Positions 7,960-39,173 of a DNA stretch of 64,000 bases are shown here, one piece after another. Source of the DNA: Bradyrhizobium retamae (GTDB lineage: Bacteria > Pseudomonadota > Alphaproteobacteria > Rhizobiales > Xanthobacteraceae); NCBI RefSeq assembly GCF_001440415.1, contig NZ_LLYA01000024.1, positions 62,001 to 126,000 of the forward strand. The letters are read 5' to 3'. The notes under the pieces were generated by a model. That model was not told where the DNA came from. It was given only the letters and a program-made list of their open reading frames with translations, and did not search any database. The position numbers were made by a program, and so were the translations under genes. Each line of letters begins with the position of its first letter. The first letter of the stretch is position 1.

Positions 7960-8988
7960 ATGGACGAAACAACGCGCGAACCCGTTCTGGTGGACCTTGC
8001 TTTGCAGGGCGGAGGCTCCCACGGCGCCTTCACCTGGGGCGTGCTCGACCGTCTGATCGAGGAGCCGTGGCTGCGGATCGAGGCAATCTCCGGCACGTCG
8101 GCGGGCGCAATGAATGCAGCCCTGGTGGCCGACGGGTGGACGCAAGGCGGTGCCGATGGCGCGCGGGCGGCGCTCGCGGCCTTTTGGCGAAGCGTGTCGC
8201 GCGCTGCCGCGTTCAGCCCGCTGCAGCGCTCGCCGCTCGACCGACTGATGGGCCGCTGGACGCTCGACACCTCACCCGCCTATGTCGCCATGGACCTGAT
8301 GGCCCGCGTGCTTTCGCCTTATGATCTCAATCCGCTCGGCCTCAACCCGCTGCGTGCCATCCTCGCCGAAAGCATCGATTTCGAGCGACTGGCCCGGGCA
8401 TCAATCAGGCTGTTCGTCACCGCGACCAATGTGCGCACCGGCCGCGGCCGCATCTTCCGCAATGCGGAGATCACGGCCGACGTCCTGCTTGCCTCGGCTT
8501 GTCTACCGACCATGTTCCAGGCGATCGAGATCGACGGTGAACCCTATTGGGATGGCGGCTATGCCGGCAATCCGACCCTCACGCCGCTGGTGCGCGAAAG
8601 CGACGCTCATGACACCATCCTGGTGCAGATCAATCCGCGCGAACGACCGAAACCGCCGCGTACGGCAAACGAAATTCTCAACCGCCTCAACGAAATCTCC
8701 TTCAACTCGCCGCTCATGAAGGAATTGCGCATGATCGCGCTGCTGCGCCAGGTGGCGGACCCCGGACACGGCGAGGGCGCGCGCTGGGCCGGAATGCGCA
8801 CGCACCGGATCATGACCGACACGCTCACGGAGTTCGGCGCATCATCTAAGCTCAACGCTGAATGGGAGTTCGTTTCGCTGCTCAAGGAAGAAGGACGCAA
8901 GAGCGCCGACGCATTCCTCAAGGCGCATGCTGGCGACCTCGGCCGGCGCTCCACCGCCGATCTCGATGCACTGCTTGCGGAGTGCTGA
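7960..8988 (+). CDS. Patatin-like phospholipase
   Basis: A 342-residue lipid acyl hydrolase. The oxyanion hole motif GGGSHG (residues 17-22), the nucleophile S47 in GTSAG and the catalytic D198 in WDGGYAG form the complete Ser-Asp dyad. No signal peptide is visible, so it is probably cytosolic or peripheral. GAGGG upstream supports the ATG at 7960; a GTG two codons earlier is possible. The next gene begins six bases after its stop. Natural lipid substrate unknown; related bacterial patatins act on phospholipids or on poly(3-hydroxybutyrate) granule-associated lipids. Confidence 0.88.
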   Translation: MDETTREPVLVDLALQGGGSHGAFTWGVLDRLIEEPWLRIEAISGTSAGAMNAALVADGWTQGGADGARAALAAFWRSVSRAAAFSPLQRSPLDRLMGRWTLDTSPAYVAMDLMARVLSPYDLNPLGLNPLRAILAESIDFERLARASIRLFVTATNVRTGRGRIFRNAEITADVLLASACLPTMFQAIEIDGEPYWDGGYAGNPTLTPLVRESDAHDTILVQINPRERPKPPRTANEILNRLNEISFNSPLMKELRMIALLRQVADPGHGEGARWAGMRTHRIMTDTLTEFGASSKLNAEWEFVSLLKEEGRKSADAFLKAHAGDLGRRSTADLDALLAEC

Positions 8989-8993
8989 GGGCG

Positions 8994-10457
8994 ATGACCC
9001 TGTTGGGACTTCTCGGCATCCTGATCGGGCTCGGCGTGCTGATCTTGTTCGCCTATCGAGGCTGGAGCGTGCTGCTGCTCGCGCCGCTTGCCGCACTGGT
9101 TGCCGCACTGTTTTCCCGCGAGCCGCTGCTGGCACACTGGACCCAGACCTTCATGGTCAGCGCGGCAGGCTTTCTGGCTCAGTTCTTTCCGCTGTTTCTG
9201 CTCGGCGCCCTGTTCGGCAAACTGATGGAAGACAGCGGCTCGGTCGCCGCGATCGCGACCTTCATGACGCGGCGGCTGGGCAGGCGGCGGGCTGTGCTCG
9301 CAGTGGTGCTCGCCGGAGCGCTCGTCACATATGGCGGCGTCAGTCTGTTTGTCGCCTTCTTCGTGCTCGCACCGATGGCGCACGAGCTGTTTCGCAACGC
9401 CGGCATCCCGCGGCGGCTGATGCCGGCGGCAATCGTGCTCGGCACCTCCACCTTCACGATGTCGGCGCTGCCCGGCACGCCATCGATCCAGAACGCGATC
9501 CCGATGCCGTTCTTCGGCACCACGCCGTTCGCCGCGCCCGGCCTTGGCATTCTGGCATCGTTGATCATGCTCGGCTTCGGCCTGTGGTGGCTCAACCGCG
9601 AAGTGGCCAACTCAAAAAGAAACGGCGAAGGCTTCGGCGACGGCGTGCCGATGCCTTCCGCCCGTCTTGCCACGGACGAAAAGCTGCGCGAACGCGCCAC
9701 CACCGCGCGGGAGTTCGATCCAGCGGAGATCGTACACGGTGCGGTGACCGACGTTCCGCCGTCAGTTGTACCCGCCGCGCTGCCGCTCATTGTGGTGATT
9801 ATCGTCAATCTCGCGATGTCGCTGCTTATCCTGCCGGCGCTGGACACCCGCTTTCTCGCCGAGGTTCGCTGGGGCGAAACGTCGCTTGCGGCCGTCGGCG
9901 GCGTATGGGCTGTCATCACAGCCCTCGCCTGCGCAATCGTGGCGGTCCTCGCCGTCAGCCATCGGCGATTGCCGGCCCTGCGTGCAACCATGGACGCCGG
10001 CGCCAACGCCGCCGTGCTACCGGCCCTGAGCGTTGCGAGCCTGGTCGGCTTCGGCGCCGTGGTGGCGGCGATGCCCGCCTTTGATGTCGTGCGCGACACC
10101 GTGCTCGGGATCGGCGGCGGTCCGCTGGTCTCGCTCGCGGTGGCGACCAACGTGCTCGCCGCGCTCACGGGGTCGGCATCGGGCGGGCTGACCATTGCGC
10201 TCGACGCACTCGGGGCGACGTATATGACGCGCGCGGCGGAGATCGGACTCGATCCCGCGCTGCTGCATCGCGTGGCGGTGATCAGTTCGGGTACGCTCGA
10301 CAGCCTGCCGCATAACGGCGCGGTCGTCACGCTGCTCGCCGTCTGCGGATCGACGCACCGGGACAGCTATCGCGACATCGTCATGGTCGGCATCGTCGGC
10401 GCACTCATCGCCCTCGTTGCCGTCATCGCGCTCGGCTCGGTGGCGGGATCGTTCTGA
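8994..10457 (+). CDS. GntP/CitM-like inner-membrane permease
   Basis: A 487-residue secondary transporter with about twelve hydrophobic helices. The arrangement (paired halves, Gly-rich re-entrant loops such as TGSASGGLTIALDALG and STFTMSALPGTPSIQN) matches the GntP family of gluconate and related hydroxy-acid/proton symporters. A polar central loop near residues 205-250 divides the halves. Start at 8994 follows the patatin stop by five bases with GAGGG as ribosome binding site. Substrate is not readable; gluconate, lactate-like acids or D-glycerate are all possible. Confidence 0.8.
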   Translation: MTLLGLLGILIGLGVLILFAYRGWSVLLLAPLAALVAALFSREPLLAHWTQTFMVSAAGFLAQFFPLFLLGALFGKLMEDSGSVAAIATFMTRRLGRRRAVLAVVLAGALVTYGGVSLFVAFFVLAPMAHELFRNAGIPRRLMPAAIVLGTSTFTMSALPGTPSIQNAIPMPFFGTTPFAAPGLGILASLIMLGFGLWWLNREVANSKRNGEGFGDGVPMPSARLATDEKLRERATTAREFDPAEIVHGAVTDVPPSVVPAALPLIVVIIVNLAMSLLILPALDTRFLAEVRWGETSLAAVGGVWAVITALACAIVAVLAVSHRRLPALRATMDAGANAAVLPALSVASLVGFGAVVAAMPAFDVVRDTVLGIGGGPLVSLAVATNVLAALTGSASGGLTIALDALGATYMTRAAEIGLDPALLHRVAVISSGTLDSLPHNGAVVTLLAVCGSTHRDSYRDIVMVGIVGALIALVAVIALGSVAGSF

Positions 10458-10492
10458 GCCATCGGCGCGGCCTGCCGTCTCAGGGTGAATAA

Positions 10493-10528
10493 TGCACAAC
10501 CACCCTTCCAGCGATCCGACGCCCTCGC
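10493..10528 (+). pseudogene. radC remnant, JAMM-motif fragment
   Basis: Thirty-six bases that match 6673-6708 of the intact radC at 33 positions and encode HNHPSSDPTPS, the RadC metal-site motif. There is no open frame around it. The matching 3' end of radC reappears at 16971-17050 in the same orientation, so both pieces probably descend from one gene now split by about 6.4 kb. Confidence 0.65.
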
Positions 10529-10529
10529 T

Positions 10530-10626
10530 CTCGGGTTGATCGTTCGCAAGTGCAACAATGCTCAGCCGGGACATCGTAGAACGCCAACAGAGCGTCGCGA
10601 TCCTTGATCAGGCAATCGACGGCCTT
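10530..10626 (-). pseudogene. IS256-family transposase remnant (frameshifted)
   Basis: Read on the minus strand, this segment encodes KDRDALLAFYDVPAEH, then, after a one-base shift, HLRTINP. In intact IS256/mutator transposases the same region runs KDRD-LLAFYDFPAEHW-HLRT-NPIES. Both the frameshift and loss of everything on either side show a dead scrap. It abuts the radC fragment at 10528, so the two broken ends were probably joined by an insertion followed by deletion. No terminal inverted repeats can be seen. Confidence 0.75.
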
Positions 10627-10847
10627 CCGGCAGCCTTCCGGCGTCGCGCCAGTGATGACCAGGATGCATGGCGGCTGGTCCGCCAGCCGGGCCGATGCAT
10701 TCAAGACCTTAGTCTAAATTGTCGCAGTACCACAGGATTGGGTTTGACTTGCGGCCGAGAGACTCGAAAGATCAAGACGAAATGGAGGCGGGCCAGGTCG
10801 AACGGCTGAAAGACCATCTGTACAGTGACGGATGACGAGAGGCGCGA

Positions 10848-11849
10848 GTGTCCAGGCTTCTCAAGATAGACAGTTTGCAAACCCACTTCTTCTCAGCGGC
10901 CGGTGTGGTCAAGGCCGTCGACGGTATCAGCTTTGATGTCAATCAGGGCGAGACGATGGCTATCGTCGGTGAGTCTGGATGCGGCAAGTCCGTCAGCGCA
11001 CTCTCAATCCTGCGGCTGGTTGCCGATCCGCCCGGCCGTATCATTGGCGGTAGCATTCGCTTCCAGGACCGAGACCTTCTCAAGCTGAGCGATGAGGAAA
11101 TCCGAGAGGTCCGAGGCAAAGACATTGCCATGGTGTTTCAGGAGCCGATGACCTCGCTCAATCCAGTACTGACGATCGGGAGACAGCTCACCGAGACCAT
11201 GGAGCAGCACCTCGACATGACCCGGGGCCAAGCGGTCGCGCGTGCGATCGAGCTGTTGGGCATGGTGGGGATATCGGATCCGGAGCGTCGACTGAGGCAG
11301 TATCCGCATCACTTCAGCGGCGGCATGCGCCAACGCGTGATGATCGCCATGGCCTTGTGCTGCGAGCCCAAGCTGATCATCGCCGACGAACCGACGACGG
11401 CGCTCGACGTGACGGTTCAGGCGCAGATTCTCGAGCTGATGAAGGATCTGACGCAGCGTCTGGGCGTGGCGCTGATCATCATCACCCACAATCTTGGTAT
11501 CGTCGCGCGCTATGCTGACAGGGTCAATGTCATGTACGCGGGCAGGATCATCGAGAGTGGAACTGCGCACGACATCTATCACCATCCCCACCATCCATAC
11601 ACGCTGGCGCTGCTGCGTTCGGTGCCGCGCATGGATCAGCCGCGCCGGGCTCGGCTCGATCCGGTGCAGGGACAGCCGCCCGACCTTTCGCGCCTCGGCG
11701 TCGGCTGCTCGTTCCAACCGCGCTGCGGCTTTGCCATTGCGCGCTGCGCGAGTCAGTCACCTCCCTTGGAGCGGATCGACGGCGGCGATCATCTCGCGGC
11801 ATGCTTTGAGGCGCATAGCGTAGCCGAATCGATGGCGAGATCGTCATGA
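10848..11849 (+). CDS. Peptide ABC transporter ATPase, DppD type
   Basis: A 333-residue cytosolic ATP-binding subunit of a dipeptide/oligopeptide-type importer. Walker A is GESGCGKS at residues 41-48, the ABC signature is FSGGMRQ at 156-162, and Walker B is [12 protein letters not shown]. The C-terminal oligopeptide extension with a Cys-rich [15 protein letters not shown] segment is present. The start is a GTG behind a GAGAGG-like site. It opens a five-gene operon (ATPase, ATPase, binding protein, two permeases) and its stop overlaps the next start (ATGA at 11846). Confidence 0.9.
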
Positions 11850-29425: not shown

Positions 29426-31429
29426 ATGAGCCGTCGCAGCCGATCCCGAGAGTATCTGCTGGCAGGCGTAGGCCTGAGCCTGCTCGCATTTGACGGCGTT
29501 GCCGCCGCTGCAGATATGCCGTTGAAGGCACCGGCGCTGAGAGCCGTCTACAACTGGAGCGGATTCTATCTCGGCGGCCATGTCGGTTATGGCGGCGGCA
29601 GCCTTGGCCCTGATGCCAGTCCCCTGCCGCTGCAAGGCGTGTTCTTTCCCCACAGCATCACCGGCCTGATCGGCGGCTATCAGGCCGGTTACAATTTTCA
29701 GCTCCCGAACAACCTGGTGTTGGGGGGCGAAGCCGATGTTTCGTTCCTGAGCACGCTTGATCGTCCGAGGCTTGCGCCGGCTCTCTTCAACACGACCTTC
29801 GACTATATTGCCACGGCACGGGGCCGCGTCGGTTACGCCTTCGGAACGCTGTTGCCCTACGTGACCGGCGGCGTCGCCTGGGCTAGGGCCCATGTCGACA
29901 TCAATGATGTCGACGGAAGCGTGTTATCTACGCGTGGGCATACACATCTCGGCTGGACCGCAGGCGCTGGCATCGAGTATGCCGCCGACGCCAGATGGAG
30001 CGCAAAACTCGAATACGACTACATCTATCTGGGCGCCCGAGCCTATGGACTTGCGGACGTGCCGCTGCCGGACGTCAGGGTCGATCCAAAGGTCCATACG
30101 GTCAAGCTCGGATTGAACTACAAGATCTGGGACGGGCCGGGTTCTGCGACATCGAGCGATTACGCCATCAGGCCCCCCACCCCTCCAGCGTCCAAGGACT
30201 GGAACGTCCACGCCCAGACGACATTCCTTCCGCAGGGCTATCCAAGCTTCCGCTCGCCGTATCACGGTACGAACAGCCTGCCGGGCGCCGGACGCGTCAG
30301 AGAGACCTGGACGGTCGGAGCCTTTCTCGGCTGGCGGTTGTGGGACGGCGGAGAGCTCTACTTTGGTCCGGAGCTTGCGCAGGGCTTCGGAATCGGCGGC
30401 ACATTAGGCTTGGCAGGTTTTTCAAACGGCGAAGCGCAAAAAGGCGGCGCCGAATATCCGAGATTCCGCGCACAGCGCTATTTCTTCCGGCAGACGTTCG
30501 GGCTGGGCGGCGAACAGGAAGAAGTGGCCGATGCGGCCAATCAGTTGCCGGGCAAGCGCGACATCGACCGGATCACGGTAACGGTCGGGCGATTTGCCGT
30601 CGGAGATTTTTTTGACGGCAATTCCTACGCAAAAGACCCGCGTGTGGATTTCATGAACTGGGCAATGTGGGCGTCCGCGGCCTATGACTTTCCGGCCGAT
30701 CTCCCCGGATTTACCCGCGGCGCGGTGGTCGAACTCAATCGCAAGGACTGGGCGGTCCGCGCGGGCGTGTTTCAGGTGCCCTCTGCTCCCAACAGCGATG
30801 TCCTCACCTTCAAGACCGGCGGAGCTGTTGTCGAGTTCGAAGAACGTCACACTGTGTTCGATCAGCCCGGCAAATTGCGGCTCGGCATCTTCGCCAATCG
30901 CGGCAATACCGGCAACTACCGCAATGCGCTGGCGATCAGCGCCGCAGATCCGACGCTCGACATCAACGACATCATGCCCAGCATCCGGCGCGAAAACCTG
31001 AAATACGGTTTCTACGTCAACGCCGAACAACAGATCATGAATGATGTCGGCCTGTTCGCCCGCGCGAGCTGGAACGACGGCCGCAACGAAATCCTGTCCT
31101 TTACCGACATCGACCGCAGCGTTTCGGCAGGCCTGTCAGTCAAGGGCAGCTATTGGGGACGCCCGAGCGATACGTTCGGTTTGGGCGGCGCAATCAATGG
31201 TCTCTCCAGCGCGCACCGCGATTTCCTGGCGGCCGGCGGTCTCGGCCTGCTGATCGGCGACGGCCGTCTCAGCTACAGCAACGAACGAATCCTCGAGACC
31301 TACTACGCCTACGCCATCGACAAGAACTTCACGCTCACCGCCGACTACCAGTTCATCACCAATCCCGCCTACAATGCCGACCGCGGCCCGGTCCATGTGT
31401 TCTCCGGCAGGCTGCACGGAGAGTTCTAG
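29426..31429 (+). CDS. Fused outer-membrane protein: Omp25-like barrel plus carbohydrate-porin domain
   Basis: A 667-residue outer-membrane protein. A signal peptide ends near AAAADMPLKAP, the usual rhizobial Omp start. Residues ~35-235 form an eight-stranded Omp25/RopB-type barrel (WSGFYLGGHVGYGGGS, VGYAFGTLLPYVTGGVAWA, WTAGAGIEYA, KLGLNYKIW at its end). After a Pro-rich linker (RPPTPPASKDW) residues ~270-667 form an OprB-like carbohydrate-selective porin, with DRITVTVGRFAVGDFFDGN and a C-terminal beta strand ending in FSGRLHGEF with terminal Phe. Two complete barrels in one chain are unusual. The frame is open throughout, and no stop or shift suggests a sequencing fusion. Confidence 0.82.
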   Translation: MSRRSRSREYLLAGVGLSLLAFDGVAAAADMPLKAPALRAVYNWSGFYLGGHVGYGGGSLGPDASPLPLQGVFFPHSITGLIGGYQAGYNFQLPNNLVLGGEADVSFLSTLDRPRLAPALFNTTFDYIATARGRVGYAFGTLLPYVTGGVAWARAHVDINDVDGSVLSTRGHTHLGWTAGAGIEYAADARWSAKLEYDYIYLGARAYGLADVPLPDVRVDPKVHTVKLGLNYKIWDGPGSATSSDYAIRPPTPPASKDWNVHAQTTFLPQGYPSFRSPYHGTNSLPGAGRVRETWTVGAFLGWRLWDGGELYFGPELAQGFGIGGTLGLAGFSNGEAQKGGAEYPRFRAQRYFFRQTFGLGGEQEEVADAANQLPGKRDIDRITVTVGRFAVGDFFDGNSYAKDPRVDFMNWAMWASAAYDFPADLPGFTRGAVVELNRKDWAVRAGVFQVPSAPNSDVLTFKTGGAVVEFEERHTVFDQPGKLRLGIFANRGNTGNYRNALAISAADPTLDINDIMPSIRRENLKYGFYVNAEQQIMNDVGLFARASWNDGRNEILSFTDIDRSVSAGLSVKGSYWGRPSDTFGLGGAINGLSSAHRDFLAAGGLGLLIGDGRLSYSNERILETYYAYAIDKNFTLTADYQFITNPAYNADRGPVHVFSGRLHGEF

Positions 31430-31447
31430 TGCCCCTTGAGGCACCCC

Positions 31448-31798
31448 ATGCTCTACTTCGTGATCAAATGCGCCCTGTCCGGCATTATCATCGCGGCGGT
31501 GTCGGAAATCGCCAAGCGCAGCCCGGCGTTCGCTGCGCTCATCGTGTCGCTGCCGCTGCTTTCGCTGTTGAGCTTCCTGTGGCTCTGGCACGACACCGGC
31601 GATGCGGAGCGGATTGCCAGTGTGGCTGAATCGACGTTTTGGTACGTGCTGCCGTCGCTACCGCTGTTCCTGATATTGCCGGCGCTGCTCAGGGCGGGCG
31701 TGGGCTTCTGGCCCAGCCTCGCCGCCGGCTGCGCGGTGACGATTGCTCTTTACTTCCTCACCGCCTGGACGCTCGCCAAATTCGGCATCCGCCTTTGA
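31448..31798 (+). CDS. DUF3147 family membrane protein
   Basis: A 116-residue inner-membrane protein with four predicted helices. MLYFVIKCALSGIIIAAVSEIAKRSP and the SLPLLSLLSFLW segment match DUF3147. Helices three and four (VLPSLPLFLILPALL, AVTIALYFLTAWTLAKFGI) complete it. It starts 16 bases after the porin's stop with GAGGCA upstream, so it may be carried on the same transcript. Function unknown. Confidence 0.82.
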   Translation: MLYFVIKCALSGIIIAAVSEIAKRSPAFAALIVSLPLLSLLSFLWLWHDTGDAERIASVAESTFWYVLPSLPLFLILPALLRAGVGFWPSLAAGCAVTIALYFLTAWTLAKFGIRL

Positions 31799-31863
31799 AG
31801 CGGCAAATTCTCCCGGCCGCGCTCCCTTCGCCTCCGCGCGGCAGCGGGGAAACCGCCGGGATT

Positions 31864-33495
31864 TTATCCCGCTGGCTGGAACGAAACTGCGCGCGCCATC
31901 GCCCATGCATCGCGGAAGCGCGGATCCTGGGTGCCTTCGATCAACTCGCCCGGACGTAGCTGTGGATAGAGCTGCGCGAATGACAACGTGTCATTCGTGG
32001 AGGATCGCTGCGAGAAGTGGATCGTCCGCAATTGCCGCGGATGGTCGAGGCCGGCCGCGGCGATCAGCTCGGACAGGGCGTGCAGGGTGGCGTGATGATA
32101 GTTGTAGACCCGTTCAATCTTGTGCGGCACCACCAGCGCGCGGGCGCGGAGCGGATCCTGGGTGCTCACGCCAGTCGGGCATCGATCGGTATGGCAGCTC
32201 AGCGACTGGATGCAGCCGAGCGCGAACATGAACCCGCGCGCAGAATTGCACCAGTCGGCGCCGATCGCCATCGCACGCGCCATGTCGAATGCGGTCGCGA
32301 TCTTGCCGGCGGCACCGATCTTGACGCGGTCACGCGCACTGATGCCGATCAGTGCATTATGGACGAAATTGACGCCCTCCCGCATCGGCATGCCCAAATG
32401 GTCCATGAATTCCAGCGGCGCAGCACCGGTGCCGCCTTCATTGCCGTCCACCACGATGAAATCAGGATATATCCCGGTTTGCAGCATCGCCTTGCAGATC
32501 GCCAGGAATTCCCAGGGATGACCGACGCACAGCTTGAACCCGACCGGCTTGCCGCCGGATAGTCGCCGCATCTCGCCGATGAAAACCATCATTTCCAGCG
32601 GCGTCGAGAACGCGCGGTGCGTGGCCGGCGAAATGCAATCCTCGCCCATGGGGATACCGCGAATTTTGGAGATCTCTTCAGAGACCTTGGCCGCCGGAAG
32701 GACCCCGCCATGTCCGGGCTTGGCTCCTTGGCTGATCTTGAGTTCGACCATCTTGATCTGATCGTCGCTGGAGACGCGGGCAAATTCTTCCGGGTTGAAT
32801 GTGCCGTCGCGGTTGCGGCAGCCGAAATAGCCCGAGCCGATTTCCCAGATGATGTCACCGCCGTGCTCGCGGTGGTAAGGACTGACGCCGCCCTCGCCGG
32901 TGTCATGCGCAAAGCTGCCCTTTTTCGCACCAGCGTTCAGCGCCCGCACGGCGTTGGGGCTGAGCGCCCCAAAACTCATCGCCGAGATGTTGAAGACCGA
33001 GGCCGAGTACGGCTTAGTGCAATCCGGACCACCGATGGTGACGCGAAACTGCTCGACGGCACCCGCCTTCGGCAACATCGAATGGTGCATCCATTCGTAG
33101 CCGTCGCGATAGACGTCCTCCTGGGTGCCGAACGGCCGCTTATCGAGCTCCATCTTGGCACGCTGATACACCAGAGCGCGGGTGTCGCGGGAAAACGGCT
33201 TGCCGTCCTTCTCGCTCTCGAAGAAGTACTGCCGTATCTCCGGCCGAATTTCTTCGAGCAAAAAACGAATGTGCGCCGAGATCGGATAATTGCGCAACAC
33301 CGCGTGGTTCTTCTGCACGAGATCGCGAATGCCCAGCAATGTAAGCGCGCCGAAGACCACGATCGGCAGCAGCAGCAACTCCCACACTTTCAGATTATTG
33401 TCGAAGATCCCGATGCCGATCAGCAATGCCGTGATGACGGCGCAGATCGTCAGCACGATGTAGCGTGGCGAGAACGGAAGCAGCAGCGTTTCCAT
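31864..33495 (-). CDS. FMN-binding glutamate-synthase-family protein
   Basis: A 543-residue flavoenzyme carrying only the central FMN/Fe-S synthase domain of glutamate synthase. Two N-terminal hydrophobic helices (residues ~10-60) would anchor it in the membrane. The catalytic barrel shows GEGGVSPYHREHGGD, EISKIRGIPMGEDCISPATH, VVDGNEGGTGAAPLEFMDHLG (split) and a Cys cluster GCIQSLSCHTDRCPTGV for an iron-sulfur centre. There is no glutaminase domain, so it cannot be a normal GltB; related proteins occur in many alphaproteobacteria, and one branch makes methylated glutamate in methylotrophs. The reaction here is unknown. Confidence 0.85.
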   Translation of the reverse strand: METLLLPFSPRYIVLTICAVITALLIGIGIFDNNLKVWELLLLPIVVFGALTLLGIRDLVQKNHAVLRNYPISAHIRFLLEEIRPEIRQYFFESEKDGKPFSRDTRALVYQRAKMELDKRPFGTQEDVYRDGYEWMHHSMLPKAGAVEQFRVTIGGPDCTKPYSASVFNISAMSFGALSPNAVRALNAGAKKGSFAHDTGEGGVSPYHREHGGDIIWEIGSGYFGCRNRDGTFNPEEFARVSSDDQIKMVELKISQGAKPGHGGVLPAAKVSEEISKIRGIPMGEDCISPATHRAFSTPLEMMVFIGEMRRLSGGKPVGFKLCVGHPWEFLAICKAMLQTGIYPDFIVVDGNEGGTGAAPLEFMDHLGMPMREGVNFVHNALIGISARDRVKIGAAGKIATAFDMARAMAIGADWCNSARGFMFALGCIQSLSCHTDRCPTGVSTQDPLRARALVVPHKIERVYNYHHATLHALSELIAAAGLDHPRQLRTIHFSQRSSTNDTLSFAQLYPQLRPGELIEGTQDPRFRDAWAMARAVSFQPAG

Positions 33496-33810
33496 GGAAC
33501 TCCCTCACCCAAATTATCCTTGCCGGACGGCAGCTTAGTTCAATGGCCGGAACGGGCGCTACACGATATACGAAGCGACCTTCACGGAAGTGACGGCGAC
33601 TTGAAAAATAAACGGGATGCTCCCGGTCCGAATAAACCTGTCGCCTTTGTGCAGTGCAGCGTAATGACGTGGAGCCGAGTGCAGTCCTTGCCGCACAACC
33701 TCGTTGTGCACCGGCACGCACGCTCTATCAATCGTCGCGTCGGCAACGAGCCGAGCGACGTTACGGGAGGGTTATAGCAGTGAGGGAAAGGGGCGGGCTA
33801 TGGGGAGCCT
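33496..33810. other. Intergenic region, no gene seen
   Basis: About 315 bases between two minus-strand genes. It contains no open frame with coding character. The promoter of the glutamate-synthase-like gene should lie close to 33500-33560; the only distinctive structure is the double palindrome that follows at 33811-33850. Confidence 0.5.
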
Positions 33811-33850
33811 GTCATTCCGGGCCGCGTCGCAGACGCGAACCCGGAATGAC
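33811..33850. repeat. Double-hairpin intergenic palindrome
   Basis: Outer stem GTCATTCCGGG (33811-33821) pairs with CCCGGAATGAC (33840-33850). Inside it CGCGTC (33823-33828) pairs with GACGCG (33832-33837) around GCA. This nested palindrome is a familiar dispersed element in Bradyrhizobium-type genomes and sits just downstream of the ferredoxin reductase stop, so it could also act as a terminator. Confidence 0.7.
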
Positions 33851-33858
33851 GGTGACCG

Positions 33859-34632
33859 TCAGCGCTCAACGAACGCCTTTTCGATCACGAAATGGCCGGG
33901 CGTGTTTCCGCTGCCTTCGATGAACCCGCCGGATTCGAACATCTGCTTCAGCTCTTCCAGCATGGCCGGGCTGCCGCACATCATGATGCGATCGGTCTCG
34001 ATATTGAGCGGCGGCTGGTGGATGTCGTTGAACAACTGCTCGGATGAGATCAGGTCGGTAATGCGGCCGCGATTGCGGAACGGCTCGCGGGTCACGGTCG
34101 GATAGTACAAGAGCTTCTCCGACAGCAGCGGCCCGAACAACTCGTCGTCGCGCAGCTTGGCGACCAGATCTTCACCATAAGCAAGTTCGGAGACCTGACG
34201 GCAGCCGTGCACGAGCACGATGGTCTCGAACCGCTCATAGACGTCGGGATCCTTGATCAGGCTGGCGAATGGGGCGAGGCCCGTGCCGGTCGAGAGCAGC
34301 AGCAAGCGCTTGCCCGGAATCAGATTGTCGGTGATCAGCGTGCCGGTCGCCTTGCGGCCGACCAGAATCTCGTCGCCCTCGCGGATCTTCTGCAGCTTCG
34401 AGGTCAGCGGCCCGTCCGCAACCTTGATGGAGAAGAATTCGAGCTCTTCCTCGTGATTGGCGCTCGCCATGCTGTAGGCGCGCAGCAGCGGCCGGCCCTC
34501 GACCTCGAGGCCGATCATTGCGAACTGGCCGTTCTGGAAGCGGAAACCGGAATCGCGGGTAGCCCGGAAGCTGAAAAGGGTATCGGTCCAGTGGCGGACA
34601 GAAAGGACTTTCTCTCTATAGAACGCGCTCAT
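33859..34632 (-). CDS. fpr: Ferredoxin--NADP+ reductase
   Basis: A 257-residue bacterial-type ferredoxin/flavodoxin-NADP reductase. The FAD motif RAYSMAS, the NADP motif GTGLAPFAS and the C-terminal FVIEKAFVER extension of the subclass found in rhizobia and Rhodobacter are all visible. It passes electrons from NADPH to ferredoxin or flavodoxin, supporting oxidative-stress defence or assimilatory reactions, in the cytosol. It is a single gene. The ATG at 34632 follows TCTATAGAGAG-type sequence without a strong ribosome binding site. Confidence 0.9.
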   Translation of the reverse strand: MSAFYREKVLSVRHWTDTLFSFRATRDSGFRFQNGQFAMIGLEVEGRPLLRAYSMASANHEEELEFFSIKVADGPLTSKLQKIREGDEILVGRKATGTLITDNLIPGKRLLLLSTGTGLAPFASLIKDPDVYERFETIVLVHGCRQVSELAYGEDLVAKLRDDELFGPLLSEKLLYYPTVTREPFRNRGRITDLISSEQLFNDIHQPPLNIETDRIMMCGSPAMLEELKQMFESGGFIEGSGNTPGHFVIEKAFVER

Positions 34633-34920
34633 GTGTTTTCGTTCTTCCTGACGTCTCGATGTAGAACGTTTCGGTCTTCGGGCCTCAAAGTGCCAAAATC
34701 AGCGAAATCAGCGGCGATTTGGCGCTTCATTTGCGCACACGAGACACATAGTCAATATGACCTGCAGCACAATTGAGAACTCGGAATGGCTGTCGGCCTA
34801 ATTTGCAAAAAGGTTCGATCGCCTTCGTTAACGCTTTCTCGCGCAATTAACTTGCTGAATTCGGCACCGATCTGGCAATAAAAGACTACGTCGAATTAAG
34901 AACGTTTCAAAAGAGATCGC

Positions 34921-35919
34921 ATGCGAAGCCCAACTGAGTTTCGAAAAGGAAAACCGGGCTTCTATCCGGACCAGGCGGTCTATGCAGAGTTTGCGGCTGC
35001 CGAATTCGGGCTGGCGTTTCGCGACCTCGACGGCGGCTCGGGATTGATCTTCAGCATCGCCGCGCGCGACAGGCTGCTTCATTTCGGCGCCGGCCGATGC
35101 TCCTGGTATCCGCAGAACAACGCGACGGCTTCGACACTGGCGTCGGACAAGTTCTTTGCCAGCAGGATTCTCCGAGACGCCGGTGTGCCCGCGCTCGGCG
35201 GCGAGTATTTCTTCCTGCACAATCGCCACCGCGCGCATCGCCCGGCGGGCCATGAACGCAGCGACGCGATTGCCGGCTTCAAGGCATTGGGTGGATCGGC
35301 CTTCGTCAAGCCGCTCACTGGAGCGCGCGGCGATTTCGCGCAAGCGGTTCACGGCGAAGCAGCGCTCGTTCGCTATCTCGATGCGGTGATGAAGTATTAT
35401 GACGCCGTTCTGATCCAGCCGATCGTCGATGGCACCGAGTATCGCGTTTTCCTGCTCGACGATGACGCGCTCTACTGCGCGCGAAAACGCCCGCCGTTCA
35501 TCTCGGGCGACGGCGTGCGCACGTTCCGCGAACTGCTGGCGGCCCATAATGACGCTTTGCGGGCCCGCGGCCTTTCGCCGGCTTCGCTGTCCGATCACGA
35601 CCCGTCACTCGACACTGTGCCGGCAAATGGCGAACGGCGCGAGATCCCCGGGCGGATGAATCTCAGTGCTGGCGGCACGATGGTACTGGCGGATGCACCG
35701 TCCGAGGGGGCCATCGTGCTGGCGCGGCAGGCTGCGCGCGCGATCGGACTTCGCGTAGCGGCCATCGACATGTTCGTAGATATCGGTGGCCAACCGGATT
35801 CCATGCAGGTCATCGAGGTCAATTCCAACCCGGCGATCCGGCTGCTGGAGAATTCCGACCGCGGCGACCTAATCCTGAAGATCTGGCATCACACCTTCTC
35901 GACCATGGGATTGCTCTAG
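34921..35919 (+). CDS. CphA-like ATP-grasp ligase (first half of a split cyanophycin-synthetase-like pair)
   Basis: A 332-residue ATP-grasp enzyme. From about residue 75 it follows the ATP-grasp domain of cyanophycin synthetase: ASTLASDKFFASRILRDAGVP, FVKPLTGARG, GTEYRVFLLDDDAL, the SGDGVRTFRELLAAHN motif, GRMNLSAGGTM, then AARAIGLRVAAIDMFVD and EVNSNPAIR, which holds metal and phosphate ligands. It lacks the long N-terminal domain and the Mur-ligase part of CphA; the latter is replaced by the next gene, which starts in this gene's stop codon. It should join an amino acid or small acid to an acceptor through an acyl phosphate. No polymer-degrading cyanophycinase gene is nearby. Confidence 0.78.
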   Translation: MRSPTEFRKGKPGFYPDQAVYAEFAAAEFGLAFRDLDGGSGLIFSIAARDRLLHFGAGRCSWYPQNNATASTLASDKFFASRILRDAGVPALGGEYFFLHNRHRAHRPAGHERSDAIAGFKALGGSAFVKPLTGARGDFAQAVHGEAALVRYLDAVMKYYDAVLIQPIVDGTEYRVFLLDDDALYCARKRPPFISGDGVRTFRELLAAHNDALRARGLSPASLSDHDPSLDTVPANGERREIPGRMNLSAGGTMVLADAPSEGAIVLARQAARAIGLRVAAIDMFVDIGGQPDSMQVIEVNSNPAIRLLENSDRGDLILKIWHHTFSTMGLL

Positions 35920-37235
35920 TGTTCGACCTGCCGAAATATGGTGACGGCGTCTGCCTCGCGCGCATGGCAGAGCTGTTGGACATGCTGGCCGTCGATCGCG
36001 CGCGGCTGCGGCGCATCTCGGTGGTGGTGACCGGCTCTAATGGCAAAGGCAGCACGGCGGCGATGTGCGCTCGAATCGGCCGCGCTTACGGTTTGCGCAC
36101 GGGTCTCTTCACTTCCCCGCATCTGTTTCGCTTCAACGAACGGATACAGGTCGACAACGTCGAAATCGACGACGACGCGCTCGCCCTTCTGAAGCGTAAG
36201 GTAGCGGCGGTCGTCGCCGACGTCTCGAGCCGTCGCGGTGAACAATTCGGCGCTTTCGAAGCGCTGTTCGCGCTCGCCTGCTTGCACTTCCAGAAGAGCG
36301 AATGCGATTTCGCGGTGTTCGAAGCTGGCATCGGCGGACGCTACGATCCAGTCCGCCTGATCGGCGCGCGCGAGACCTGCGTCACGTCGGTCGATTACGA
36401 GCATGTCGAATTGCTCGGAAACTCGCTTGAACTAATCGCCTCCGACAAGAGCGACGCCTGCGCCGCCGGCGGCACGATCATCTATGGTGAAAACTGCCGC
36501 GACCTGCGGCGACATCTCGTCGAGTATCATCGCTGGCGCGGCTGCACCCCACTGTTCGTCCGTGACGAGATCAGTGTCGACAACGAGGCCCAGTCCGCGT
36601 CGGGGCAGCATTTCGATTTCCAGTTCGGCTATCATGATTTTCGCCGCATCGAGCTTGGCCTGCCCGGAGCGTTCCAGTTCAACAACGCCGCCATCGCGGT
36701 CACGCTATTCCTGCTCTGGCTGCAACGCGAGCAGCCGCGCAAGGCCCCCGAGCGGATCGAAGCGGCCATCCGTTCGGGCCTGCGCAATGTCCGCTGGCCC
36801 GGCCGCCTGGAGGTCATCGAGCAAGACCCGCTCACGGTGATCGACGTCGGCCATACGCCGGACGGCATCCGGCAATCGCACGCGAGCCTCACGGCTATTC
36901 ATGGCGGCGACGATTGGATTCTCGTCACTGGCGCCTCGCGCGACAAGAAAGCCGACGAGATCGTCGGCGTGCTGGCGCCGTCGTTCGATACGATCATCTG
37001 CACAGCGGCGCACCACAAGGGCGCGGACCCGCAAGCCATCGCCGCCGCCGCGCGACTTGGCAATTCCGACGCAACCCTTCATGTCGCGGCGACAATCGCG
37101 GATGCCGTGGGGCTCTCGCAGGAGATGGCTCTGGAACAAAAGCGCAGAGTGTATGTGGCGGGTGGATTATTCCTGGCGATCGAATACGCAACCGTCGCAA
37201 AGGGCGGCCGCGCGGAGGATTTGGAATTTTTCTGA
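35919..37235 (+). CDS. FolC/Mur-ligase-family enzyme paired with the ATP-grasp ligase
   Basis: A 438-residue amide ligase. The P-loop TGSNGKGST (about residues 40-48), SPHLFRFNERI, EAGIGGRYDPVRL, TSVDYEHVELLG and a retained Lys in IASDKSD follow folylpolyglutamate synthase, as does WPGRLEV. The usual DGAHNP signature is replaced by DVGHTPDG, and DATN by DPVR, so it is a divergent branch, not the housekeeping FolC. The start is a GTG whose first base is the last base of the upstream TAG, so translation is coupled. Gene order matches the ATP-grasp-then-Mur domain order of CphA. The product is unknown. Confidence 0.78.
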   Translation: MFDLPKYGDGVCLARMAELLDMLAVDRARLRRISVVVTGSNGKGSTAAMCARIGRAYGLRTGLFTSPHLFRFNERIQVDNVEIDDDALALLKRKVAAVVADVSSRRGEQFGAFEALFALACLHFQKSECDFAVFEAGIGGRYDPVRLIGARETCVTSVDYEHVELLGNSLELIASDKSDACAAGGTIIYGENCRDLRRHLVEYHRWRGCTPLFVRDEISVDNEAQSASGQHFDFQFGYHDFRRIELGLPGAFQFNNAAIAVTLFLLWLQREQPRKAPERIEAAIRSGLRNVRWPGRLEVIEQDPLTVIDVGHTPDGIRQSHASLTAIHGGDDWILVTGASRDKKADEIVGVLAPSFDTIICTAAHHKGADPQAIAAAARLGNSDATLHVAATIADAVGLSQEMALEQKRRVYVAGGLFLAIEYATVAKGGRAEDLEFF

Positions 37236-37325
37236 ACGTGGCGCACAATCTGTGCAATCGAGCAGCTATTCCGCGGACAGTGCACTGGAAAGCGCCAGAA
37301 TGCGACACCGAGGGGAGAAAGCACC

Positions 37326-38327
37326 ATGAGCGACATCGTCAATCGTCAGATCCTGCTGGTCGAAAAGCCGACCGGGAAGCTCGGGCCGGAGCATTTCAAG
37401 ATGGTCAACGGCGCGGTGCCCGAACCGAAAGATGGCGAGGCGCTGGTGCGGACGCGCTATATTTCGCTTGATGCCGCCAACCGCGCGTGGATGCACGGTG
37501 CCACCTATCGCGCCGCCGTCGAGGCCAACACGGTGATGGCTGGTGGCAGCATCGCGGAGGTCGTCGCCTCGAAGGCTTCGAGCCTCGCGCCGGGCGATAT
37601 CGTATTCGGCGATACCGGCTGGCAGGATTATGCCGCCGTGCCGGCAAAGCATCTGAACAAGATGCCGAAGATGGAGCCGATGACGCATCTGCTCAGCGTC
37701 TACGGCATCGCCGGCCTCACCGCCTATTTTGGTCTCCTGCATGTCGGCAAGCCGAAGCAAGGCGAGACCGTCGTCGTGTCGGCTGCCGCCGGCTCCGTCG
37801 GATCGATCGTCGGGCAAATCGCCAAGATCAAGGGCTGCAACGTCATCGGCATCGCCGGCGGCAAGGACAAGTGCCAGTGGCTCACGTCCGAACTCGGCTT
37901 TGACGCCGCGGTCGATTACAAGGACGGCGCCACCTTCAAGGCGCTGCGATCAGCCGCGCCGAAGGGCATCGACGTCTATTTCGACAATGTCGGCGGCGAG
38001 ATTCTCGAAGCCTGCCTTTCGCTGATGAACAACCGCGGCCGTATCGCCTGCTGCGGCGCGCTTTCGCAATATGACGGCGTACCGTCGGCCCACGGTCCGC
38101 GCGGCGTGCCCGGCCTGATCGTGGTGAAGCGCCTCATCATGCAGGGCTTCATCGTGATGGATTATATGGACCAGAGCGCCGCGGCGCTTGCCGATCTGCA
38201 GTCCTGGGTCGCCTCCGGCAAGTTGAAAGTGCAGGAGGACGTGATCGACGGAATCGAGAACACGCCGAAAGCGCTGATCGGCCTGCTCGCCGGCGAGAAC
38301 CGCGGCAAGAGGATGGTGAGGGTGTAA
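37326..38327 (+). CDS. NADP-dependent MDR oxidoreductase (CurA/PTGR-like)
   Basis: A 333-residue zinc-independent medium-chain reductase. The coenzyme-binding motif AAAGSVGSIVGQIAKIKGC, the ISLDAANRAWM start of the catalytic domain and the FDNVGGEILEA block place it with CurA, leukotriene B4 12-hydroxydehydrogenase and prostaglandin reductase types, which reduce the alpha-beta double bond of enones. Zinc-binding Cys residues are absent. GGGGAGAAAG precedes the ATG. It is a single gene, 90 bases after the ligase gene, and not clearly part of that unit. Confidence 0.88.
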   Translation: MSDIVNRQILLVEKPTGKLGPEHFKMVNGAVPEPKDGEALVRTRYISLDAANRAWMHGATYRAAVEANTVMAGGSIAEVVASKASSLAPGDIVFGDTGWQDYAAVPAKHLNKMPKMEPMTHLLSVYGIAGLTAYFGLLHVGKPKQGETVVVSAAAGSVGSIVGQIAKIKGCNVIGIAGGKDKCQWLTSELGFDAAVDYKDGATFKALRSAAPKGIDVYFDNVGGEILEACLSLMNNRGRIACCGALSQYDGVPSAHGPRGVPGLIVVKRLIMQGFIVMDYMDQSAAALADLQSWVASGKLKVQEDVIDGIENTPKALIGLLAGENRGKRMVRV

Positions 38328-38390
38328 CCCGAGCAGAGGGGCACTCTGCGATCGCGAATTTCCGGTAGGGTGGCGGCGGGGGTGTAGCTA

Positions 38391-39173
38391 ATGGCTGAAA
38401 TTCGCTTCGATGACGGCTCCAGCTATGAGCGCATGATGGGCGTCTGAAGCCGACTCGCCGGCGAGATCTTTCTCGATTGGCTGGCCCCGCCGATGGGCGT
38501 GCGATGGATCGACGTCGGCTGCGGCAACGGTGCCTTCACCGACATCCTGGTCGAGCGATGCGCTCCGGTGGACGTTCAGGGTATTGATCCGTCCGAAGGG
38601 CAACTTGCATTTGCACGCAGCAGACTAGCGGCGCGCCTGGCGAAGTTTCGCCAAGGCGACGCCATGGCGCTTCCCTTTCCCGCTGACAGCTTCGATGCAG
38701 CCGTCATGGCGTTGGTCCTGGTATTCGTTCCCGATCCAGCCAAAGGCGTCGAGGAAATGGTTCGAGTGGTCAGCCCGGGCGGCACAGTCGCGGCCTACAT
38801 GTGGGACATGTTGGGTGGCGGATTTCCCCTGGATCCGATCCACGTCGAGATGCGTGCGATGGGTCTTGCGCCTCCACGCCCGTCGCGGATGGACGCATCC
38901 ACAATGCCAGCGCTGCAGGACTTGTGGACAGGTGCCGGTCTCGAGGCCGTGGAGACGCGGGAGATCTCGGTACAGCGGACTTTTGCGCATTTCGACGAAT
39001 TCTGGAAAATTAACCTGGAAGCCCCTTCGATCGCCCCCATCATTGCCACGATGGAATCTGCAGACGCAGAAGCACTCAAGAGGCGGGTGCGCACTCGCCT
39101 CCATGAGGATGCGGGGGGACGCATCATTTGTGACGCGCGCGCGCATGCGATAAAGGGACGCCGGCCGAGGTAA
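38391..39173 (+). pseudogene. SAM-dependent methyltransferase interrupted by an in-frame TGA
   Basis: From the ATG at 38391 the frame reads MAEIRFDDGSSYERMMGV, stops at TGA (38445-38447), then continues in the same frame SRLAGEIFLDWLAPP and the class I methyltransferase motif I VDVGCGNGAF-like WIDVGCGNGAFTDIL. In intact relatives the stop position is Trp (YERxMGxWSR), so one G-to-A change would explain it. Downstream motifs (GIDPSEGQLAFAR, FPADSFDAAVMALVLVFVP) are intact. Restart at the ATG at 38493 would lose the first helix but keep motif I. The start has weak ribosome binding. Confidence 0.75.

Follow-up and report, generated by a model that had tools for sequence, protein, structure and literature searches.

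Gene pair and its chromosomal site

Two overlapping ligase genes, designated P1 and P2, are found in the window, a 64,000-nucleotide stretch of the 8.47-Mb genome of Bradyrhizobium retamae (Table 1). P2 starts with a GTG codon, the first G of which is the final base of the P1 stop codon TAG, giving a 1-base overlap. The ATP-grasp gene precedes the gene for the Mur-type ligase, which is the order of the catalytic domains in the cyanophycin synthetase CphA, and a counterpart of the CphA N domain is absent. All this agrees with an earlier note on this DNA, made from the sequence alone, as do the positions of the genes and the four motifs that it quoted, SGDGVRTFREL, NLSAGGT, and EVNSNPAIR in the P1 product and DVGHTPDG in the P2 product.

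Table 1. Features of the P1-P2 locus (positions are those of the window)
Feature	Positions	Strand	Remarks
Glu_synthase (glutamate-synthase-domain) gene	31864..33495	-	Conserved flank of the site
FAD/NAD-binding oxidoreductase gene, ferredoxin-NADP-reductase-like by reading	33859..34632	-	Divergent flank of the site
Conserved promoter-like element CGCAATTAACTTGCTGAA	34842..34859	+	Begins 79 bases 5' of P1
P1, predicted ATP-grasp amide ligase	34921..35919	+	332 aa
P2, predicted FolC-derived Mur-type ligase	35919..37235	+	438 aa
Zinc-binding-dehydrogenase family gene	37326..38327	+	Conserved downstream flank of the site

In the family of the window's genome, the pair occupies a fixed slot, with the divergent Glu_synthase gene on one side and the dehydrogenase gene downstream. 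The divergent ferredoxin-NADP-reductase-like gene is found at the slot in most loci of this family; it was assigned by reading and is treated here as a flank of the site, with no claim to membership in the pathway. Of 50 pair loci examined, some of them on contigs too short to tell, 16 have a convergent SBP_bac_3 binding protein gene and an SDF symporter gene behind P2. The glutamate-related flanks may represent backbone only.

An Rfam scan of positions 31400-38500 shows no family near its gathering score, the THF riboswitch included. The sole match (17.3 bits; gathering score, 50) was rejected as a chance one. Searches against the PADLOC defense-system models (E≤0.001) returned no match for P1, P2, or the lone ATP-grasp protein described below.

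Linkage and selection

The linkage of the two genes was followed in two sets of genomes. The first comprises 149 genomes of the family, with 19 carriers of P1 (at least 53% identity), including the window's genome. The second consists of 35 P1 loci, among which the closest relatives that have names are Bradyrhizobium species; some genomes are common to both sets (e.g., those of loci L006 and L036). P2 follows P1 directly on the 3' side, in the same orientation, in all 18 loci of the first set (the window's own omitted) and in 34 of the 35 loci of the second, the exception (L068) ending 23 residues into P1. Pooled, the adjacency is seen in 52/52 evaluable loci, among which a contig end cuts one of the genes in L048 and L067 and P1 is broken in L058, a metagenome bin. 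Each P2 locus retrieved has P1 adjoining. This adjacency is beyond chance, and the conserved linkage lends support to the two-enzyme amide-ligase system proposed in the earlier note. Separation of the genes in relatives, which that note regarded as an argument against such a system, is not seen at identities of at least 53% but does occur for four distant P1-like genes that have no adjacent P2.

Both genes are under purifying selection, with dN/dS values of 0.125 to 0.205 in 16 comparisons overall (0.125 to 0.188 for P1 and 0.148 to 0.205 for P2, eight comparisons each). Across 39 loci, which do not all come from separate genomes, the protein distances of P1 and P2 have a correlation of 0.92; the partial correlation is 0.70 with the glutamate-synthase-like and dehydrogenase neighbors removed, and three further partial correlations are 0.32 to 0.50, values that are not independent because the genomes are related and partly duplicate. 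P1 and P2 are intact, overlapping, and jointly conserved ligase genes that are under selection and retain their catalytic letters. Apparent P1-P2 fusions, suggested by long reading frames at L013 and L019, are ruled out by stop codons between the genes at both loci.

P2, a FolC-related ligase

Profile and structure comparisons place P2 with FolC (folylpolyglutamate synthase) and not with the M domain of CphA. P2 scores 251.6 bits with the FolC model TIGR01499, above its subfamily cut-off of 162.65, versus 36.3 bits with the CphA M domain. In sequence searches of solved structures, folylpolyglutamate synthases are matched with an E value of 1.3e-70 and CphA with 1.8e-6. The predicted fold (pLDDT 85.1) has folylpolyglutamate synthases at Foldseek ranks 1 to 16; its Z score is 40.1 for the structure 1JBW (2.6 Å over 394 residues) versus 27.0 for CphA. 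From this sequence and model evidence, the predicted origin of P2 is FolC.

In a phylogenetic tree, for which no root was inferred, 15 P2 rows are split from 21 FolC rows by a branch with 100/100 support. The FolC rows are mostly phylum matches of the P2 profile, i.e., the most P2-like FolCs there, and the FolCs of the window's genome and of the distant pair genome G558 fall on the other side from P2. The canonical folC gene of the window's genome, located elsewhere (G000:C159), scores 347.9 bits, better than P2. P2 is not the genome's folate enzyme, nor is it the only folC, an objection that the earlier note had raised against its own reading.

P2 has the P-loop GSNGKGS and the catalytic letters K43, E135, H162, K177, D309, and H312. 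Of these, K43, K177, E135, and H162 are invariant in all 15 P2 rows and align with the Escherichia coli enzyme, so that the P-loop, E146, H173, and K188 of E. coli FolC are retained; we take the latter three residues to have roles in catalysis, the Glu and His as metal ligands and K188 as the second lysine. The pocket is altered at G111, Y142, P144, R146, T313, and G416 of P2, and the FolC pocket letters GGRLDA[TV]N, Thr122, and HNP are missing. Compared with E. coli FolC, the changes T122 to G, N157 to R, D172 to E, E187 to D, G190 to D, and S403 to G are fixed in all 15 rows, and two more positions are variable (A155 to P, S, or V; N306 to T or S). T122, A155, and N157, presumably located at the pterin pocket, are conserved in 21 or 22 of 22 FolCs; S403 presumably lies near the glutamate site. 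An enzyme that had retained its chemistry while its substrates changed would be expected to show such a pattern, and this signature separates the putatively FolC-derived P2 clade from the FolCs sampled.

The motif DVGHTPDG, which the earlier note took as a diverged active-site signature, is indeed present in P2. Most canonical FolCs sampled have D[GV][AG]HNP, and DYAHKPD is found in a MurE-type ligase that the same genome encodes (L003); as judged from these sequences, the H[T/S]PD form is no mark of CphA. A candidate four-cysteine metal site (C12, C129, C181, and C193, invariant in 25 rows) was rejected, as C181 alone is invariant when the distant pairs are included.

A search of 72,556 plasmid records for P2 matched 107, all at less than 60% identity (33% at best among the matches listed). 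The annotated ones among the 15 listed carry the label folylpolyglutamate synthase or folP.

P1, an ATP-grasp protein

P1 is most similar to the G domain of CphA, in agreement with the earlier note. It matches the ATP-grasp part of the CphA model TIGR02068 with 85.6 bits (E value of 2.1e-24), against a cut-off of 850 for the whole of CphA, and scores lower with GshF (48.3 bits; cut-off 425), the RimK family TIGR00768 (33.7; 143.4), and MptN (28.1; 350). None of the curated models searched covers P1 above its own cut-off. The predicted fold (pLDDT 85.6) has Z scores of 18.4 for CphA, 17.2 for LysX, 17.2 for GshF, and 16.9 for RimK. Sequence and model comparisons suggest that P1 groups with the CphA G domain, GshF, LysX/ArgX, and RimK, CphA1 being on top with a narrow lead in fold. 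Of the superpositions on CphA proposed in the earlier note, those of the single products give 18.4 for P1 and 27 for P2, the latter to be compared with 40 for FolC.

The predicted ATP- and acyl-phosphate-binding residues of P1, K77, K130, R175, K189, N247, and E299, align with K220, K261, R309, R323, N394, and E450 of TeCphA1 in the numbering of the TeCphA1 study (PMC9427784); K189 is Lys or Arg in the distant pairs. According to that study, R309 is an essential residue, His267 in the P-loop of the G domain is catalytically important, and Glu215, which is required in TeCphA1, interacts with the Arg side chain of the primer, although the E215A effect differs between TeCphA1 and SuCphA1 (PMC9427784), making Glu215 a weak criterion. 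The position of His267 is occupied in P1 by Arg136, which is invariant in both P1 alignments (25/25 and 15/15 rows), and that of Glu215 by Thr72.

A tree built from 35 ATP-grasp domains unites P1 with three P1-like relatives in one starred clade (97/98) and keeps six CphA-like proteins separate (100/99), suggesting that P1 sits beside the CphA-like clade and not within it. The P2-bearing P1 rows form a single clade with weak support (55/76). Since P1 falls outside the CphA-like clade and P2 appears to be derived from FolC, the pair looks assembled separately, not split from CphA, and the earlier note's description of it as a split cyanophycin synthetase is not borne out. The components belong to known superfamilies, and the pair matches curated models only as P2 = "FolC." Current models would call P2 FolC and give cyanophycin synthetase as the best match of P1, and both names would be misleading.

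Wider distribution of the pair and of P1-like genes

P2 is found (E≤1e-60) in 4 of 289 genomes of the class, the window's genome and three distant ones (G476, G558, and G661). In these three, P1 lies directly 5' of P2, in the same order as in the window; identity to the window's proteins is 35 to 39% for P2 and 33 to 36% for P1. The neighborhoods in G476 and G558 are unlike that of the window, and the contig of G661 is too short to compare. In G558, the genes accD-folC-P1-P2 all run in one direction, and 15 bases separate folC from the pair. At locus L089, P1 is accompanied by P2.

Searches with P1 (E≤1e-35) detect it in 8 of 385 class genomes, the four pair genomes and four in which the P1-like gene has no adjacent P2. 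In G440, it overlaps thyA, and in G541 it has no recognized partner; P2 is absent within about 9 kb in both. In G503, it is located behind uvrA on a contig that ends 184 bases past its stop codon in an apparent insertion sequence, and in G681 it is followed by an ATP-grasp gene of another clade. The existence of these genes indicates that P1 types are not always in need of P2. The neighbor names accD, folC, thyA, uvrA, and creatininase were confirmed after reading by eye.

In 398 genomes of the phylum, the P2 profile gives 23 matches, comprising P2 proper in 4 and FolC-type proteins (190 to 211 bits) in the other 19. None of these 19 has a P1 gene within 1.5-kb flanks.

A lone ATP-grasp gene in the same slot

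The most unusual feature of the pair is the exchange at its slot. In 7/7 of the same-genus genomes listed as lacking P2 (E≤1e-55; G024, G064, G086, G138, G393, G410, and G1038), the slot holds a lone ATP-grasp gene of a distant clade, the product of which has approximately 30% identity to P1 where aligned. Both flanks are present in 6 of the 7, the contig of G064 ending on the dehydrogenase side. The lone type forms its own starred clade in the ATP-grasp trees, in one of which the rows L156 to L161 were shortened by the profile match. In the six genomes other than G138, the protein is only 266 to 268 aa long, and the three of these six that were examined are missing approximately 49 residues around the GDG region.

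The promoter-like element upstream of P1 matches its pattern exactly in 32 of the 35 loci of the second collection. It is retained in G138 (locus L088), 99 bases 5' of the lone ATP-grasp start, indicating that the coding content there has been swapped behind the same leader. Of the seven genomes of the genus that carry the lone ATP-grasp gene, G138 alone has it: with up to 5 substitutions allowed in the 420 bases upstream, the element is absent 5' of the lone ATP-grasp genes of L156 to L161, as it is at 12 pair loci of other genera, L120, and L121. Its 13-base core occurs once in the window's genome, which is unsurprising at such a length.

In the family sample, the pair is present in 19 and the lone ATP-grasp gene (E≤1e-40) in 8 of the 149 genomes, with no genome carrying both. 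This is no proof of mutual exclusion, because an overlap of about 1.0 genome is expected by chance; the evidence is the common site. Tentatively, the conserved slot could, in Bradyrhizobium and its relatives, hold one of two interchangeable modules, either the ATP-grasp gene with a neofunctionalized FolC or the distant-clade lone ATP-grasp gene, mostly shortened in the seven strains, both feeding one peptide-like metabolite or cofactor from a local glutamate/aspartate pool. The in-place swap makes such a common function directly testable.

Possible functions of the pair

CphA, FolC, and the Mur ligases couple a carboxylate, activated as an acyl phosphate, to an amine. The overlapping ligase genes are conserved together across contexts and are therefore best read as encoding successive amide ligations. 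As suggested by sequence comparisons, P1 and P2 might carry out two ATP-dependent amide (peptide) ligations in one system, giving a small, peptide-like product distinct from both folate and cyanophycin; this reading is given a probability of about 0.48. P2 would activate the carboxylate of a non-pterin acceptor and then attach an amino acid, P1, as a member of the CphA-G/GshB/RimK group, would form a second amide bond, and the outcome would be a short non-ribosomal peptide-like metabolite. The common pathway, the order of the steps, the non-folate acceptor, and the small, non-polymeric product are all inferred. The acceptor is probably not folate, because the FolC pocket is altered in P2 and a better folC is present in the genome. 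Glutamate or aspartate as the building block would be a guess only, prompted by the adjoining Glu_synthase gene and by the amino-acid-type binding protein and dicarboxylate-type symporter genes seen in 16 of 50 loci.

A link to folate is nevertheless conceivable, because folC precedes the pair in G558 and thyA overlaps the P1-like gene in G440. Together with the FolC ancestry predicted for P2 and the weak match of P1 to MptN, these contexts would fit the modification of a folate- or pterin-type cofactor tail, with P2 as an additional folylpolyglutamate synthase and an alpha-glutamate ligase role for P1 similar to that of MptN or CofF. This is unlikely, though it deserves to be kept in mind: P2 has lost letters that are near universal in the 22 FolCs, each folate context is found in one lineage only, and accD and folC adjoin in E. 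coli as well, so that a position behind folC does not in itself mark a gene as folate related. Among the named flanks of the site there is no folate gene, and the Rfam scan brought no THF riboswitch to light.

Quite improbable is the notion that P1 and P2 are unrelated ligases kept adjacent merely by inherited synteny. The whole neighborhood is syntenic in the window's family, so that linkage within it comes by descent and does not count as independent; however, order and tight spacing are kept in two other contexts (L120 and L121) at the low identities of the distant pairs. Still more doubtful is a role of P1 as a RimK-like enzyme that tags a protein or peptide, with P2 supplying or lengthening the tag. 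RimK structures come just behind CphA for the P1 model and there are weak matches to the RimK family, but the score is far below the cut-off (33.7 versus 143.4 bits) and no target-like gene is found among the neighbors followed. A two-protein synthetase of a cyanophycin-like polymer is the least probable of these, as the domain order, the proximity of CphA G domains to P1 in sequence and fold, and the matching of R175 and N247 to R309 (essential) and N394 of TeCphA1 are set against a P2 that is apparently not of M-domain origin, Arg136 and Thr72 in place of His267 and Glu215, the position of P1 outside the CphA-like clade, and the absence of any match to the cyanophycinase model TIGR02069 in the window's genome at E≤0.001, an absence that the earlier note had rightly reported for its stretch. 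With the CphA His and Glu missing from P1 and the cyanophycinase search negative, cyanophycin is an improbable product.

The P2 signature provides metabolite discovery with a defined soil-bacterial gene pair. A literature search, with preprints and most subscription journals outside its scope, found no title or abstract opening on an ATP-grasp/FolC-like pair or on this Bradyrhizobium locus.

Comparison with known systems

Mur-type and ATP-grasp ligases act in one pathway in the synthesis of murein and of archaeal pseudomurein, as described in PMC11915815. Unlike the pair, those sets consist of other subfamilies, and no cell-wall gene is present among the checked flanks of P1-P2.

The C-terminal glutathione synthetase module of GshF, RimK, MptN, and N-acetylglutaminylglutamine synthetase share with P1 the ATP-grasp superfamily and carboxylate-amine chemistry. 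P1 is, however, far under their cut-offs, and we know of no case in which any of them is paired with a FolC-like gene.

CphA1 (TIGR02068; TeCphA1 structure 7WAE) resembles the pair in its ATP-grasp fold, nucleotide- and acyl-phosphate-binding residues of the G domain, all of which have counterparts in P1, and domain order. In contrast to the single N-G-M chain of CphA1, the pair consists of separate ORFs of 332 and 438 aa, with no N domain fused, that score 85.6 and 30.6 bits with TIGR02068 against the cut-off of 850. Its P-loop has Arg for His267, with Thr for Glu215, and its Mur-type partner appears to be derived from FolC instead of being nearest to the CphA M domain.

FolC (TIGR01499; 1JBW and 2VOS) shares with P2 the overall fold, a score above the model cut-off, the P-loop, the catalytic lysines, and the metal-binding letters. 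The differences are in GTNGKG (GSNGKG in P2), GGRLDATN (GGR[YL]D[PSV][VT]R), HNP (H[TS]PD), and S403 of the E. coli enzyme (Gly). Unlike FolC, P2 falls in a clade of its own, coexists with a canonical folC, and is paired with P1.

Variant arrangements of the ATP-grasp and ligase genes

The lone ATP-grasp, a distant-clade gene that occupies the chromosomal site of the P1-P2 pair in same-genus genomes, encodes a putative ligase of just 266 to 268 amino acids in loci L156 to L161. In three genomes, it lacks approximately 49 residues around the GDG loop, compared with the 320-aa form in L088. Elsewhere, an ATP-grasp of this lone type adjoins a creatininase-family amidohydrolase gene (L086) or shares a neighborhood with one (L087).

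Coordinates of the variant arrangements
Locus	Coordinates	Feature
L158	5505-6305	shortened lone ATP-grasp (example)
L058	289-1401	apparently broken P1
L184	8962-10811	thyA and P1-like gene
L121	9998-14657	accD-folC and pair
L186 (G681)	8770-10964	two consecutive ATP-grasp genes
L086	7021-8810	amidohydrolase and lone type
L087	7926-11684	amidohydrolase and lone type

In L058, which comes from a metagenome bin, P1 is represented by two overlapping pieces and is apparently broken; P2 is still found downstream of it.

In L184, the thymidylate synthase gene thyA overlaps at its end with a P1-like ATP-grasp gene, which may indicate a link to folate. In L121, the pair lies immediately behind accD-folC, and a single run of genes holds both a canonical folC and P2.

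In G681, a CphA-like ATP-grasp of the solo type is directly followed by one of the lone type, which replaces the pair in Bradyrhizobium. This tandem combines the same types of enzyme in a third way.
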